Of a stretch of DNA of 64,000 bases, positions 2,164-62,205 are shown piece by piece. Both the position numbers and the translations under genes were made by a program. Source of the stretch: Bacteroidota bacterium (GTDB lineage: Bacteria; Bacteroidota; Bacteroidia; Chitinophagales; Chitinophagaceae); the NCBI GenBank assembly GCA_018267955.1, contig JAFDXL010000005.1, forward strand, positions 310,001 through 374,000, in the 5' to 3' direction. How positions within the stretch are numbered: the stretch's first letter is position 1; every line of letters starts with the position of its first letter. Below the pieces are notes generated by a model. The model ran no database searches. It worked only from the letters and a program-made list of their open reading frames with translations, and was not told the origin of the DNA.

Positions 2164-3534
2164 ATGGCAAAAATCAAGTCAGCCTTTTTCTGTCAGCAAT
2201 GTGGTTATGAATCTCCAAAGTGGACCGGCAAATGCCCTTCTTGTGGTGCATGGAATTCTTTTGTAGAAGAAGTGATACAACGCGACGATAAGAAAAATGT
2301 AACTGCGGGTTGGGAAGACGAAACCAAAGATCAATCCAAAGCACATAAACTGGAAGAACTGGTTATCACCAAAGAGATAAGACTCTCCACTCCTGATTCA
2401 GAACTCAATCGTGTATTGGGTGGCGGTATGGTACCTGGCTCTGTGATATTAATAGCAGGCGAACCAGGTATTGGTAAATCAACCTTATTTCTTCAATGCG
2501 CTTTGCAATGGAAGAACATCACAACATTATATATTTCCGGTGAAGAAAGTGCGCAACAGGTAAAGCTACGTGCCGATCGTGTAGGTACGAGCAACCCCAA
2601 CCTGTATTTGCTTACTGCAACTAATACTAATACCCTCTTCCAGGAAGTAAAAAAAGTAAAACCACAACTACTGATCATAGATTCCATACAAACGCTGGAA
2701 TCCCCTTATGTTGAAAGCCCGGCAGGTAGCGTATCGCAGGTGCGTGAGTGTGCAGCAGAATTGCAACGGTTTGCCAAAGCAACCAATATACCGGTATGTA
2801 TCATTGGCCATATTACCAAAGATGGCTCTATAGCCGGCCCTAAGATACTGGAGCACATGGTAGATACCGTATTGCAGTTTGAAGGGGACCGCCATTATGC
2901 TTATCGCATACTACGCACTATAAAAAATCGTTTCGGTAGCACATCAGAACTGGGCATCTACGAAATGGTCACCAATGGTATGCGCCCGGTGAGCAATCCT
3001 TCCGAGATATTATTATCTCAACACGATGAACCACTCAGCGGCATTGCTATAGCCAGTACCATGGAAGGTGCACGTCCATTGATGATAGAAGTACAGGCGC
3101 TGGTAACACAGGCTGTATATGGCACACCACAGCGTACAGTGAGCGGGCTCGACCTCCGCAGGCTACAATTGCTTTTAGCAGTGTTAGAGAAACGTGGCGG
3201 TTTTCATTTCGGCACCCGCGATGTATTCGTGAACATAGCAGGTGGATTGAAAATAGAAGACCCGAGCATTGAGCTGGCAGTAGTATGCGCCTTGCTATCA
3301 TCCTACGAAGACAAAGCATTACCTAATAATATCTGCCTTGTAGGAGAAATAGGTCTTTCTGGTGAGATACGTGCCGTCAACCGCATAGACCAGCGCATTG
3401 CAGAGGCAGATAAATTGGGTATGGATGTAATACTGATCCCTAAAGCCAATGCTAAGGGGCTGGATACAAAGAGTTATAAGATCGAGATCAAGACGGTGAA
3501 TAAAGTAGAGGATGTTTACAGGATGTTTTTCTAA
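2164..3534 (+). CDS. radA: DNA repair protein RadA (Sms)
   Basis: A 456-residue full-length RadA. Domains in order: an N-terminal C4 zinc finger (C10, C13, C24, C27), a RecA-like ATPase with Walker A GEPGIGKST (99-107) and Walker B LLIIDS (169-174), the RadA-specific KNRFG motif (254-258), and a C-terminal Lon-protease-like domain. RadA is a DnaB-type helicase that promotes branch migration during homologous recombination. The stop TAA is immediately followed by the ATG of comF, so the two are translationally linked. A leader with a terminator hairpin lies directly upstream. Confidence 0.95.
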   Translation: MAKIKSAFFCQQCGYESPKWTGKCPSCGAWNSFVEEVIQRDDKKNVTAGWEDETKDQSKAHKLEELVITKEIRLSTPDSELNRVLGGGMVPGSVILIAGEPGIGKSTLFLQCALQWKNITTLYISGEESAQQVKLRADRVGTSNPNLYLLTATNTNTLFQEVKKVKPQLLIIDSIQTLESPYVESPAGSVSQVRECAAELQRFAKATNIPVCIIGHITKDGSIAGPKILEHMVDTVLQFEGDRHYAYRILRTIKNRFGSTSELGIYEMVTNGMRPVSNPSEILLSQHDEPLSGIAIASTMEGARPLMIEVQALVTQAVYGTPQRTVSGLDLRRLQLLLAVLEKRGGFHFGTRDVFVNIAGGLKIEDPSIELAVVCALLSSYEDKALPNNICLVGEIGLSGEIRAVNRIDQRIAEADKLGMDVILIPKANAKGLDTKSYKIEIKTVNKVEDVYRMFF

Positions 3535-58283: not shown

Positions 58284-58747
58284 GAAATTCATTAACTTTT
58301 TTTAGAACACCTTTGTAACTTATTGATTTTCAATAAAATTTTTGAATAAAAGTTATTGACAGTGGGGAAATTCAAAAGTGAAAAGTCAAAATTAATAAGC
58401 TGTATTTGTTGCTATTTGCTAACAATGGGCGGATTTACAGATTTAGGGTTTTATTGATAATCAATGATTTGAGAGGAAAAATGCTATCATTTGCTAACAA
58501 TGTTGATACTAATTCAAAAGGCAAAATTCAAAAGTAAAATTGACCACCTCCCCTCCTGCGTCGGGTACTCCTCCTAAGAACAGGAGGAGAGATTGAGAGT
58601 TGGGTGATGCAGGCATTTGCATACAGGAAAAGAATCTGTGATAATGATCATAGTTGGATAGTTTATAGTTAGTACAAAATTACGGAATATCTCTATTCGA
58701 ATTTGAATAGATAACAGATCAGATGTAGTTTTGAATTTTCAGAATAT
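58284..58747. other. Non-coding AT-rich region with small repeats
   Basis: The 657-base gap between rplM and the gene at 58850 has no supported ORF. It holds a direct repeat ATTTGCTAACAATG (58414-58427, 58489-58502), several variants of AATTCAAAAGT, and a perfect 8-bp hairpin CTCCTCCT/AGGAGGAG (58568-58589). These look like degenerate intergenic sequence at the edge of an accessory patch. Confidence 0.6.
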
Positions 58748-58778
58748 TTTGAAAAAATAATACTATTCTCTATATTTG
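58748..58778 (+). promoter_or_regulatory. Promoter with consensus -33 and -7 elements
   Basis: TTTG (58748-58751), 19 bases, TATATTTG (58771-58778): an exact match to the Bacteroides-type TTTG-N19-TAnnTTTG promoter. It drives the membrane protein gene at 58850 with a leader of about 68 nt. Confidence 0.68.
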
Positions 58779-58849
58779 TTACAAAATCGGAGTAGGCTCG
58801 TTCTTTAGTGCAGTAGAGATTCGCTCAACACAAAGATCTTCTCGAATAA

Positions 58850-59251
58850 ATGAGAAAGCATATCATAATAATAGCAGTTGTAGCCGTTATATACTTAATA
58901 CTGGACATTTTTTTTAATGACTCTATGCTATATATCGTATTCGGAACTGCTGCGGGAATACTTGAAGAAATATTCCGTATAAAATCACATTTGGAAGTTC
59001 TATTGCCTCTTATGGTTTTGCTTAGCTTTTTGCTTGCCTCTTATGCTTATATAAAATCTCAAAAAAAATACATAAAAGTGTTTTCATTGATTTTAATGAT
59101 TGCACTTTCCTATATCGTTGATTATACTTTCTGTTTTTTCGTACAATATGACTCCCTAACATACTATCAACACATATACCTAGCCCTTTCTTTGAGAATC
59201 TTAATGATTGCTACTGTGCTATTTTTAGAGAAGAGATCTACCCTTGCATAG
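58850..59251 (+). CDS. Predicted four-helix membrane protein of unknown function
   Basis: A 133-residue hydrophobic protein with about four membrane helices (about 4-22, 24-40, 51-67, 77-97) and a short C-terminus. Leu/Ile-rich, AT-rich codon use. I do not recognise the family. The copy A repeat begins 2 bases after its stop codon. A consensus promoter precedes it. First gene of the 58.8-62.1 kb accessory patch. Confidence 0.6.
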   Translation: MRKHIIIIAVVAVIYLILDIFFNDSMLYIVFGTAAGILEEIFRIKSHLEVLLPLMVLLSFLLASYAYIKSQKKYIKVFSLILMIALSYIVDYTFCFFVQYDSLTYYQHIYLALSLRILMIATVLFLEKRSTLA

Positions 59252-59253
59252 CC

Positions 59254-59346
59254 TCTGACGAAGTTGTAAATGGGAGGCGAATCTATTTTTCACAAATCTC
59301 CCGATCTGCGACCTCTATAAGCGTAGTCAGAGACTACGCTCAGCGG
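59254..59346 (+). repeat. Double-palindrome repeat, copy A
   Basis: About 93 bases shared with copy B from TCTGACGA on. Palindrome 1 is CAAATCTCCCGATCTGCG-like (59293-59310, loop reversed relative to other copies), palindrome 2 is GCGTAGTCAGAGACTACGC (59321-59339), with the 10-base spacer ACCTCTATAA. It begins directly behind a stop codon. Confidence 0.85.
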
Positions 59347-59422
59347 CGAGAAAATTGTTGCCCTACGTGGCGACTAAAGAATTATCTTGTCGTGGTTATA
59401 TTTACTTCAAACACTATTACTT

Positions 59423-59584
59423 ATGAAAAAGCCCTGGTGGGAATACATTGATAAACCTGCGTATTTATTAATTTTTGGCGGCATTTACCTAATATCACGC
59501 AATGCAATTATAGGGGGGATCATAACCGGCATTGGAGCAATAGCTGCTATTATCTTCTTCTTTATGAAAGCAAAGAATAGCTAA
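59423..59584 (+). CDS. Small membrane protein between repeat copies A and B
   Basis: A 53-residue protein: MKKPWWEYIDKPAYLLIF followed by a hydrophobic, Gly/Ile-rich hairpin (IIGGIITGIGAIAAIIFFF). One or two membrane helices. The start at 59423 is preferred over the in-frame 59387 for its length and lysine-rich N-terminus. It is enclosed by two nearly full-length copies of the repeat in the same orientation, so it may be carried with them. Family not recognised. Confidence 0.5.
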   Translation: MKKPWWEYIDKPAYLLIFGGIYLISRNAIIGGIITGIGAIAAIIFFFMKAKNS

Positions 59585-59625
59585 CCAAATTAGGATGATT
59601 AAACTATACCTCGTTCATCGTAGTT

Positions 59626-59743
59626 TCTGACGACGTTGTAAATGGGAGGCAAATCTATATTGTTTCGCAAATCGGGAGATTTGCGACCTTTATGAGCGTA
59701 GTCAGAGACTGCGCCCAGCGGTAAATTTGCAACCTTCATAAGC
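59626..59743 (+). repeat. Double-palindrome repeat, copy B with a decayed partial unit
   Basis: Palindrome 1 CGCAAATCGGGAGATTTGCG (59666-59685), spacer ACCTTTATGA, palindrome 2 (59696-59714, one mismatch). A decayed extra half unit (AAATTTGCAACCTTCATAAGC-like, 59723-59743) follows. Upstream 40 bases match copy A. It ends 3 bases before the stop codon of the minus-strand gene at 59746. Confidence 0.85.
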
Positions 59744-59745
59744 TA

Positions 59746-60198
59746 TTACATTCTGCTTCGCATCTCTTCAATAAAAGCATCCGGATCTTTTGGGCTTATG
59801 ATGATTTGAACTTCATTGGTCTTTATAAAAACCATGTTGTTGTCATTATCCGTATGCATCAGAACCTGACCAATAGATTCGAAATGAAAAAGTCCCTGGC
59901 TGCTGTTGAATAAACGTGATCCAAAACGGACACCAAGGCCAAGTTCGTTACTATAAATTCTGCGAATTTCCTGTATATCCAAATAGAAAACATCTCTGTG
60001 TATAATGCCAGAGAATGTAATCTTATCGCTTTGTAACCGGTATATTTGGTTACCAAATAAAGAGGTAATGAAAAGGAATGTGGCGACAATGACAGCTATT
60101 GTAAAATAGGTTACATCGTCGGTAATAACCCCTAAAGCCGCAAGAATAAATATTACGAATACTGCACCTATTCTGTAAGGTTTTCTTGTCACACCCAT
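59746..60198 (-). CDS. Membrane protein with PH-like domain
   Basis: A 150-residue protein with two N-terminal membrane helices (about 9-25 and 29-46), then a beta-rich part (about 50-150) with IYRLQSDKITFSGIIHRDVFYLDIQEIRRI and a final EVQIIISPKDPDAFIEEMR. This layout is typical of bacterial PH-like (bPH2/YdbS-type) proteins. Function unknown. It stands in the repeat-rich patch. Confidence 0.6.
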   Translation of the reverse strand: MGVTRKPYRIGAVFVIFILAALGVITDDVTYFTIAVIVATFLFITSLFGNQIYRLQSDKITFSGIIHRDVFYLDIQEIRRIYSNELGLGVRFGSRLFNSSQGLFHFESIGQVLMHTDNDNNMVFIKTNEVQIIISPKDPDAFIEEMRSRM

Positions 60199-60236
60199 AT
60201 ACCGCTAATTACTAGTTAGTCTCAATCATATTTACG

Positions 60237-60289
60237 TTCAGCGTAGTCTCTGACTACGCGGCTAAAGGAAGCAAATCTCCTGATTTGCG
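60237..60289 (-). repeat. Double-palindrome repeat, copy C (inverted)
   Basis: GCGTAGTCTCTGACTACGC (60241-60259) then GCAAATCTCCTGATTTGCG (60271-60289): the same unit on the opposite strand, with an 11-base spacer. It lies 6 bases past the stop codon of the RAYT gene. Confidence 0.88.
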
Positions 60290-60295
60290 TTACAG

Positions 60296-60847
60296 CTATT
60301 CATGCCAATACGATAAAATTAATTTCATTTCCGCATCATTATACAAAGCATTTGCGCTGCTATATACATAGTCTTCCTCCCGATCTACCCAACCCGCCCG
60401 CACGGGATTTGCATGAATATAATCCAGCTTCTGCCTGAAGAAATTATAGGATGTTATTTCTATAGCATGGCTGCCGTGCATCCAAACCTGGTATTTGCTA
60501 TTGCGCTGGTGCTGTGAGGCATTCCACTCGAAACGATGCAAAAGCCAATGCCGCCTGCTTTCACGCTCCTGCATAATAGCTTCTAATATGGCATTGGCGG
60601 TAAACTTTTTAAAATCTCTCAGCGTATCCGATAAAGTTCCGTTAGCACTACTTACTATCAAATGCACGTGATTGGTCATAATAACATAGCCGTAAACCTG
60701 TAGCCCTTTCTCCTTAATACAATAGGCGAGGCTATCCATTATAATATCTCTATACACTTTACGGCTAAAGACATCTACCCAATCCACTACCGTTAGTGTA
60801 AGAAAATAGGTACCGTGCTGGTCATAGATCTGGTAGGCGCTGCTCAT
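60296..60847 (-). CDS. REP-associated tyrosine transposase (RAYT, IS200-like Y1)
   Basis: A 183-residue Y1 transposase of the IS200/IS605-related RAYT group. The HUH motif is HVH (60-62) in YVIMTNHVHLIV; the catalytic Tyr is probably Tyr143 in LDYIHANPVRAG (141-152), the RAYT hallmark. No IS200 ends or accessory TnpB found. The start at 60847 excludes an upstream frame that reads through repeat D. It is enclosed by repeat copies D (5' side) and C (3' side) in inverted orientation, the classical RAYT arrangement. Single-strand cleavage at the hairpins is likely (inference). Confidence 0.88.
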   Translation of the reverse strand: MSSAYQIYDQHGTYFLTLTVVDWVDVFSRKVYRDIIMDSLAYCIKEKGLQVYGYVIMTNHVHLIVSSANGTLSDTLRDFKKFTANAILEAIMQERESRRHWLLHRFEWNASQHQRNSKYQVWMHGSHAIEITSYNFFRQKLDYIHANPVRAGWVDREEDYVYSSANALYNDAEMKLILSYWHE

Positions 60848-60859
60848 GGGAATTGGAAG

Positions 60860-60944
60860 ATAGGAATTATTTGTTTCGCAAACTTCGTTTCGCAAATCGG
60901 GAGATTTGCAACCTTTATGAGCGTAGTCAGAGACTACGCCCAGC
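60860..60944 (+). repeat. Double-palindrome repeat, copy D
   Basis: Palindrome 1 (60891-60909), spacer ACCTTTATGA, palindrome 2 GCGTAGTCAGAGACTACGC (60921-60939), then CCAGC. The left arm TTTCGCAAA is duplicated just upstream (60873-60882). It lies 13 bases upstream of the RAYT start codon. Confidence 0.88.
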
Positions 60945-60976
60945 ATTTACTTAAATACCATACTCAACAAAATTCC

Positions 60977-61435
60977 TTACTCTTCAGTATGTTTCTCATT
61001 AAGAATAGTATCAATTTTACTTATTAATTCTTGATTAAATGGACGTAATAATTCCTGCATGAATTCTTTTCGATGTTTCTTTATTCCCCCTTCACTCCCT
61101 CCTTCATGTTTTGCATCATAAGCATACGCAATGAAAATTTCTGAAGTTTTGGAGGTATCCCAATATTCCTTATCAGAATAATAACGAAAAACATACGTAA
61201 AAGGTAGACCTTTCTGAACTATGTGTATTCTTACATAGCCGGTATCATCATTAAGATAATCCTTAATACTATCTTGATAAATAATTGGGTTCTCCGAGAT
61301 TATTTCTTGGATCGCTTTTTCTAATTCGTATTTCGATACATGATAGCGATATCTTTTGATGCTACCATGAGTACCGCCACTAACACAACTAACGAAACTG
61401 CAAACCAAGATATATATATATAAGTGCTTTCTCAT
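60977..61435 (-). CDS. Predicted lipoprotein of unknown function
   Basis: A 152-residue protein with a lipoprotein-type signal (MRKHLYIYILVCSFVSC, Cys17). The mature part is polar, with FTYVFRYYSDKEYWDTSKTSEIF-like beta sequence and a charged C-terminus. The start at 61435 gives the proper signal sequence; the frame is open to 61456. AT-rich codon use. I do not recognise the family. Confidence 0.55.
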   Translation of the reverse strand: MRKHLYIYILVCSFVSCVSGGTHGSIKRYRYHVSKYELEKAIQEIISENPIIYQDSIKDYLNDDTGYVRIHIVQKGLPFTYVFRYYSDKEYWDTSKTSEIFIAYAYDAKHEGGSEGGIKKHRKEFMQELLRPFNQELISKIDTILNEKHTEE

Positions 61436-61506
61436 AGTAATTCTTAGGTTGTACATTTCATTTTAATCCCAGCTAAACGCAGTCTCTGAAATCAGCAATA
61501 TTGATG

Positions 61507-61578
61507 AATAGGAGTTATTCGTTTCGCAAATCGTGAGATTTGCGGCCTTTATGGGCGTAGTCTGAGACTACGCCCAGC
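61507..61578 (+). repeat. Double-palindrome repeat, copy E
   Basis: Palindrome 1 CGCAAATCGTGAGATTTGCG (61525-61544), spacer GCCTTTATGG, palindrome 2 GCGTAGTCTGAGACTACGC (61555-61573) extended by GG/CC. The upstream ATAGGAGTTATTCG resembles copy D. It lies just past the stop of the minus-strand gene at 61597. Confidence 0.88.
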
Positions 61579-61596
61579 AGTCAGCGGGGTCAAATA

Positions 61597-62118
61597 TCAA
61601 TGTATCCATTCTTTGAGAACATATAAATAACCACTTTCATCATCCGTTTTGCAAGGAATTTTCCACTCAAAAAGCTTATTAACTATCGAAGCTTTCATTT
61701 TATTAGCACTATCCTTTATGACATACACGCCGTTAGTCATATTAAAGTATCGGCTGAAAAAATACTGCTTGTCTTCTGATACTTTTTCATTTTTACGAAC
61801 TACTAAAAAACCATAATAGTTCAGATCGATTTCTCCTAAATCCAAAATACTGTGGTTTTTCAGGATAGGCTCAAGAATAGAAATATATCTTTTCTCACTA
61901 TAGTTATTTTTATTTTGTAAAACATCGTACAAATGATCATTGGGTACCACTACCCTACCAGAATAGGTTTGGGACCTAATATCCAGAGAAACATAAAAAG
62001 TATGCATTCCAAAATCACTCAATACTAAACTGTAAAAATCTTGATTCTCATTAAACTTCTGAGCAATAGTAGATTTACATACTAATAGTACAGCTAAGAA
62101 CAATAGCATTTTTTTCAT
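61597..62118 (-). CDS. Secreted protein of unknown function
   Basis: A 173-residue protein with a signal peptide (1-20, ending TIAQ). The rest is polar with YSLVLSDFGMHTFYVSLDIRS and LDLGEIDLNYYGFLVV, suggesting beta strands; no Cys pair or known motif. AT-rich. Not recognised. Confidence 0.55.
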   Translation of the reverse strand: MKKMLLFLAVLLVCKSTIAQKFNENQDFYSLVLSDFGMHTFYVSLDIRSQTYSGRVVVPNDHLYDVLQNKNNYSEKRYISILEPILKNHSILDLGEIDLNYYGFLVVRKNEKVSEDKQYFFSRYFNMTNGVYVIKDSANKMKASIVNKLFEWKIPCKTDDESGYLYVLKEWIH

Positions 62119-62181
62119 AGATACAAATATGAATTCTCACGTATAGTCATAAATTATGCTTGAAATTTCATGCTACTTCCC

Positions 62182-62205
62182 AATCAACCAATCAACCAAT
62201 CAACC
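62182..62205 (+). repeat. 8-bp tandem repeat (AATCAACC x3)
   Basis: Three perfect tandem copies of AATCAACC end directly at the last base before the minus-strand stop codon (TAG, 62206-62208) of the ketosynthase gene. A plain microsatellite. Confidence 0.85.

Follow-up and report, generated by a model that had tools for sequence, protein, structure and literature searches.

REP-associated tyrosine transposases (RAYTs) are widespread and have long been retained. The window analysed here, a stretch of 64,000 nucleotides from the genome of a Bacteroidota bacterium of the family Chitinophagaceae, contains a gene that reads as a RAYT, surrounded by five copies of a unit made of two palindromes. 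This locus raises the question of whether the gene and the units form a REP/RAYT system, and which of its parts would correspond to a REP, to a REPIN or to a segment that moves. Within the published descriptions cited below, REP/RAYT systems are mostly gammaproteobacterial and have GTAG-type REPs.

The initial annotation had called the gene a RAYT and noted that RAYTs are usually single-copy, and both points held here. The predicted protein scored 100.9 bits against the NCBIfam model NF047646 (REP_Tyr_transpos; cut-off 80) and 27 bits against Pfam Y1_Tnp (cut-off 23), while its score against the IS200 model, 20.1 bits, was far below the cut-off of 55 bits. All 16 members of the protein alignment (A2) likewise matched NF047646 at E<=0.001. 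The AlphaFold model of the protein (mean pLDDT 81.6) had as its best Foldseek match 4er8, the structure of a RAYT in complex with a REP hairpin; in the sequence alignment to 4er8 the tryptophan was conserved and adjacent positions were changed. One copy of the gene was detected at E<=0.001 in the genome of the window (G000; 4.18 Mb, 10 contigs). The closest relative, from Bacteroidetes bacterium 43-93, was 85% identical, and Ilyomonas and Taibaiella were also among the relatives. Twenty-two of the 25 fetched relatives with record titles were titled Bacteroidota, the others being Bibersteinia, Gallicola and Rickettsiales. The homologue in the gammaproteobacterium Bibersteinia trehalosi (L032 3001-3546) was 41% identical and had no inverted similarity between its flanks; horizontal transfer is possible in this case.

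All five two-palindrome units that had been reported around the gene (A to E) were recovered (Table 1), the inner palindromes being searched with up to two mismatches. Neither palindrome is expected in the window by chance, as the mean was 0.00 matches for each in 100 dinucleotide-preserving shuffles of the window. Each unit consists of an outer hairpin with a stem of ~8 to 10 bp and, in tandem with it, an inner hairpin with a stem of ~6 to 7 bp; the distance between the two is usually 10 or 11 bases. Unit C lies 6 bases past the stop codon, as annotated initially. The 13 bases given there for unit D had to be corrected, since 43 bases (60848-60890) separate its inner hairpin from the start codon. 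When four units were folded as DNA, they folded on both strands, and the inward strand was the more stable one in three of them, not in the fourth.

The unit is not confined to these five places, as it also occurs outside the window. With up to two mismatches, the outer palindrome was found at 11 places in G000, five of them inside the window. A covariance model (R1) was built from ten units, unit C among them; it gave 17 matches in G000 at E<=0.01, including one that overlaps unit B, and the ten matches above 70 bits are the very units behind the model.

Table 1. Features of the RAYT locus, with positions in the window; bit scores are those obtained with model R1.
Feature	Position	Strand	Inner palindrome	Outer palindrome	Remarks
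Unit A with decayed inverted left unit	59246..59345 (edges approximate)	+	59291-59310	59321-59339	72.9 bits; REPIN-like inverted dimer
Unit B with decayed inverted left unit	59612..59720 (edges approximate)	+	59666-59685	59696-59714	90.2 bits; REPIN-like inverted dimer
Unit C	60230..60296	-	60270-60289	60241-60259	3' side of the gene; 79.8 bits; DNA fold
Whole RAYT element, 710 bp	60235..60944	-			gene with inverted end units C and D
RAYT (TnpAREP) gene	60296..60847	-			183 aa; HUH motif NHVH; tyrosine motif YIHANPVRAG
Unit D	60884..60950	+	60891-60910	60921-60939	5' side of the gene; 87.4 bits; two hairpins in DNA fold, on either strand
Unit E	61518..61584	+	61525-61544	61555-61573	81.8 bits; left-half remnant possible, weak

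The initial annotation took the single unit to be a REPIN-like element. REPINs, as described in PMC3116915, are inward pairs of REPs, and here it is two units placed head-on that are the REPIN equivalent, because A and B belong to inverted dimers and inverted pairs recur in a related genome. To the left of both A and B lie decayed units in inverted orientation that scored above all 2000 mononucleotide shuffles with each of three queries (34, 45 and 37 for A, where the shuffles reached at most 32, 31 and 28; 53, 61 and 52 for B, where they reached at most 31, 31 and 33). At unit B, a match was also obtained on the reverse strand at 59607-59692 (29.3 bits). Units A and B are the right halves of inverted dimers of ~100-110 bp. 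The left half of unit E gave p values of 0.073, 0.055 and 0.33 with the three queries, and the same shuffle test revealed no decayed inverted unit on the left of unit D.

The related genome, G196, is from the same genus and has no RAYT at E<=0.001. Its 13 unit matches include four inverted pairs (eight matches), each 158-170 bp long and built around a short core. On the hand-listed contigs, neighbouring units separated by under 250 bp faced inward in six pairs and outward in none, and four pairs were in tandem; the inward-facing close pairs have the same arrangement as the units at the RAYT. Two inverted REPs forming one short unit, which is what makes a REPIN, are thus found in A, in B and in the pairs of G196; the high copy number of REPINs, often hundreds per genome, is not found here.

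Features of the locus recur at other RAYT genes. Fifty-five RAYT loci were reduced to 52 after the duplicates L039, L041 and L050 had been dropped. Inverted similarity between the two flanks, exceeding 200 shuffles plus a margin, was present at 36 of these loci and absent from the other 16; a repetition of the test gave 37 of 52, as the shuffles differed. At 23 of 37 loci a hairpin pair better than 20 shuffles was found at both ends, and at 33 of the 46 ends of these 23 loci the fully extended hairpins were separated by 8 or 9 bases.

The GT[AG]G guide tetranucleotide, which not every RAYT subclass has to carry, was not found at the 5' foot of the hairpins, and G[CT]T stands there instead. On the inward strand, G[CT]T preceded the outer hairpin at 38 of the 46 ends within a 7-base window, compared with 4, 5 and 8 ends for three control feet; narrowing the window to 6 bases left 37 of them. 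It was present at all 20 ends of loci with GCGTAGTC-type hairpins (background expectation 2.5) and at 18 of 26 ends in the other hairpin families (background expectation 3.5). As the motif had been spotted in these first loci themselves, 40 more loci, hand-picked from the family-wide list of RAYT homologues, were fetched and subjected to the same tests. In this further set, which is not independent in that several loci share genomes with the first set or are closely related to it, 29 of 40 loci had inverted flanks, 10 of these 29 had a pass in the two-hairpin test at each end, and G[CT]T was found at 13 of the resulting 20 ends (controls 6, 2 and 4; background 3.2). The G[CT]T foot holds in the further set and is weaker in distant families, where longer loops were seen, with ACT or TCT among the feet.

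In a set of 79 GCGTAGTC-type units, which includes at least five opposite-strand reads, the 5' flank was conserved over ~9 bases, with G at -5 in 71 units, C or T at -4 in 75 and T at -3 in 74, and the spacer measured 10 or 11 bases in 66 of the 79. The stems are also biased with respect to strand: wobbles read on the inward strand were G.T in 31 cases versus A.C in 2 at the 23 loci, and 12 versus 4 in the further set, figures that are inflated by relatedness. Outside the GCGTAGTC group, the count at the 23 loci was only 8 versus 2, and a looser count that included doubtful hairpins yielded 45 versus 22. A bias towards G.T on the inward strand is expected if this strand must fold. Finally, similarity between hairpins correlated with similarity between the RAYT proteins (Mantel r 0.675 for the outer and 0.593 for the inner hairpin; none of 5000 permutations was as high).

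Across genomes, the link between RAYT and units that the initial annotation had drawn was borne out in part. Units were searched in 195 genomes of the family with stricter filters, by which weak matches are lost. At a cut of E<=1e-60, which was set after inspection of the lists, 7 of 12 genomes with a RAYT homologue contained units, versus 9 of 183 others (Fisher p 3.8e-6). The association was weaker at E<=1e-10, with a homologue in 14 of 16 unit-bearing genomes versus 107 of 179 others (p 0.022). Within the genus, units were present in four of the six genomes in which no RAYT was detected (13, 3, 3 and 1 matches), and three of the nine genomes with a RAYT had no units (G094, G203 and G206). 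The association with close homologues speaks for the link, and the units in four of six genomes of the genus without a detected RAYT speak against it. We infer that units without a RAYT are relics of past activity.

Derivatives of the whole RAYT element were found elsewhere in G000. A deletion copy of 226 bp (C6:206986-207211) matches positions 60235-60344 and 60811-60944 of the window, with additional cross-matches from unit to unit; it was delimited by its BLAST pieces, a MAFFT alignment having misplaced the left part. This copy retains both end units and both ends of the gene, lacks 469 bp of the middle and has a 3-bp overlap at the deletion junction, and its similarity to the element ends at the end units. 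At C6:77.7 kb, a fragment with the start of the gene is fused to the opposite end unit. Together, the deletion copy and the fragment imply either that the full element was formerly present elsewhere or that its derivatives moved. In the sister genome G195, the element aligns over 60235-60944 with 83.8% DNA identity and, as in G000, lies between rplM and a ketoacyl-synthase gene; this shared location suggests vertical descent.

A clean empty site was not found for the deletion-copy region or for four other sites in 15 genomes of the genus. The deletion-copy region was discarded as an empty-site test, being an att-type integration hotspot with other content in the sister genome. C10:511127, the only one of the four sites with both flanks in the sister, was rejected as a clean insertion, as gene gain or loss between units is seen there; the sites compared in G197, G201 and G198 were rejected as well, the arrays being rearranged instead. 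One G201 site contains a further short inverted dimer. In G000, C6:206.1-206.3 kb (L169 2661-2740) carries a tRNA/tmRNA-type 3' end (CCGCCGGTTCCACA) together with its terminator, and the CCGCCGGTTCCACA site looks like the attachment-site duplication of an integrated element.

Among known systems, the locus most invites comparison with the subclass 2.6 genes of Quentin 2018 (PMC6006769), which that article equates with Bertels group 5. By its description these genes, mostly from Bacteroidetes, are flanked by atypical, weaker structures that are without GT[AG]G and have copies elsewhere in the genome; their proteins have the motifs NH[LIV]H, WQ and YIH[QN]NP and show no conservation of the region with which TnpAREP of E. 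coli reads GTAG. A changed guide would lead one to expect this. The system described here agrees with this account in its origin in Bacteroidetes, in the motifs NH[LIV]H and YIH.NP, in having no GT[AG]G, in the copies elsewhere and in the unconserved guide-reading region. It departs from the described motifs in that the RAYT of the window has A in YIH[QN]NP and WM for WQ; several of its relatives read IHQNP or IHNNP in the alignment. The initial annotation considered the unit not yet described for this lineage, which holds only in part, as GT[AG]G-less structures are already present in PMC6006769. What goes beyond that article's description is the two-hairpin unit with its near-fixed spacing, the one-strand G[CT]T foot, the inverted placement on both sides of the gene, the deletion copy of the whole RAYT element and the dimers. 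Searches of a library of openly licensed articles, covering their main texts, returned neither the two-hairpin unit nor its G[CT]T foot, and the supplementary table of PMC6006769 may hold such structures.

With classical gammaproteobacterial REP/RAYT systems, as presented in PMC2817692 and PMC3116915, the locus shares two inverted cognate palindromes, inverted doublets, and singlets that are likely remnants. Unlike in those systems, each end has two different hairpins in tandem and G[CT]T rather than GT[AG]G, and copies number in the tens rather than the hundreds; REPs are usually present in more than 100 copies (Nunvar 2010, PMC2817692), compared with the 17 unit matches of G000. A Y1 transposase with flanking inverted repeats is also found in TIRYTs (Di Nocera 2013, PMC3733652), some repeats of which are described as double palindromes or as a degenerate REP joined to another hairpin. 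Quentin 2018 (PMC6006769) places 20 of 26 TIRYTs in subclass 2.1 and the rest in 2.2 and 2.5.

By most of the features tested, the system of G000 is a REPtron, the exceptions being the GT[AG]G foot and the high copy number. We consider it probable that C, the RAYT gene and D, with the further units, constitute a REPtron with cognate end units that works by a G[CT]T-guided mechanism. In such a mechanism, the strand that reads from outer to inner hairpin would become single-stranded, for example at a replication fork, and the RAYT would bind the hairpins of the single-stranded unit. Its guide would be the G[CT]T sequence immediately 5' of the outer hairpin, where classical REPs have GT[AG]G, and the enzyme would cut and rejoin the DNA beside the foot through its catalytic tyrosine. 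The movable segment would be bounded by two inverted units. It could be the whole RAYT element, internal deletion of which would give rise to MITE-like copies such as that of 226 bp, or it could be the short inverted dimers, A and B as well as those of relatives, which would then be the REPINs of this lineage. Single units would be the remains of RAYT elements or of dimers.

Two other explanations appear unlikely, and about equally so. The units could mainly be RNA or DNA hairpins selected because they serve the host, for example by terminating transcription or protecting mRNA, and would then lie near the RAYT only as a by-product. This would fit with units that fold on both strands, that adjoin terminator-like hairpins in some places (e.g. 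at C6:206-207 kb) and that occur in genomes with no detected RAYT, but it sits badly with the inverted arrangement seen at 36 of the 52 RAYT loci, with hairpin sequences that track the RAYT sequence, and with a foot and a wobble bias that favour one strand. Alternatively, the locus could be a normal IS200/IS605-type insertion sequence, which moves whole and is merely rare here. Gene parts with end units at other places, namely the deletion copy and the fragment at C6:77.7 kb, speak for such an element; against it stand the single full copy, the low score with the IS200 model, the location of the sister copy in the same interval and the inverted ends, as known IS200/IS605 members are described as having no terminal inverted repeats (PMC2817692). 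REPtrons do not appear to move as a unit, according to Quentin 2018 (PMC6006769), and the deletion copy bears on whether they ever do.

In the genus, the interval that separates rplM from the ketoacyl-synthase gene (58574-62203 of the window) is hypervariable. It is very improbable that the units delimit gene cassettes swapped by the RAYT or by recombination between units, and scarcely less so that two-hairpin units are movable borders, with hypervariable gene arrays built from unit-bounded single-gene cassettes. What suggests cassettes is that the cluster in the window and that in the sister genome both look like unit - gene - unit with differing genes. The sister interval shares the RAYT element and units with G000, none of the five other ORFs was matched, and in the rest of the interval only the units and a 35-base stretch near rplM are similar. 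Moreover, C10:511127 has one unit where the sister (L141, G195 C1:787872-789161) has a unit, a gene of 222 aa and a truncated unit. That gene, a probable secreted-protein gene, had no match at E<=1e-5 in the 195 family genomes, a set outside which its own genome lies and which was searched with no positive control. Four genus members, those among 12 fetched in which both genes were located together, speak against cassettes: their intervals range from ~0.8 to 7.3 kb, with no unit match and no comparable repeat in them. In two other genomes, the homologues of one such gene have no direct repeats, only unrelated inverted pairs.

For the preferred reading, a REPtron with two-hairpin ends, the Bacteroidota end code (outer hairpin, fixed spacer, inner hairpin, G[CT]T foot and favoured strand) defines exact test substrates, and natural variants provide a way to study the coevolution of the enzyme with its guide sequence. 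The miniature and partly deleted copies suggest how a poorly described branch of the RAYTs marks its DNA.

Two further repeat arrangements were noted in the loci compared. A different repeat of ~45 bases (GTTCCACTGTTCGGAACGGAACAGATGGAACAC) is located at 1417-1464, 3258-3301 and 3880-3924 of L252 and at 2547-2590 and 3167-3210 of L254, and recurs in the rearranged arrays of the close relatives G197 and G201. At one RAYT locus (L061), each flank carries three or more hairpins, whose GTCTCTGAC or GTCAGAGAC cores are related.
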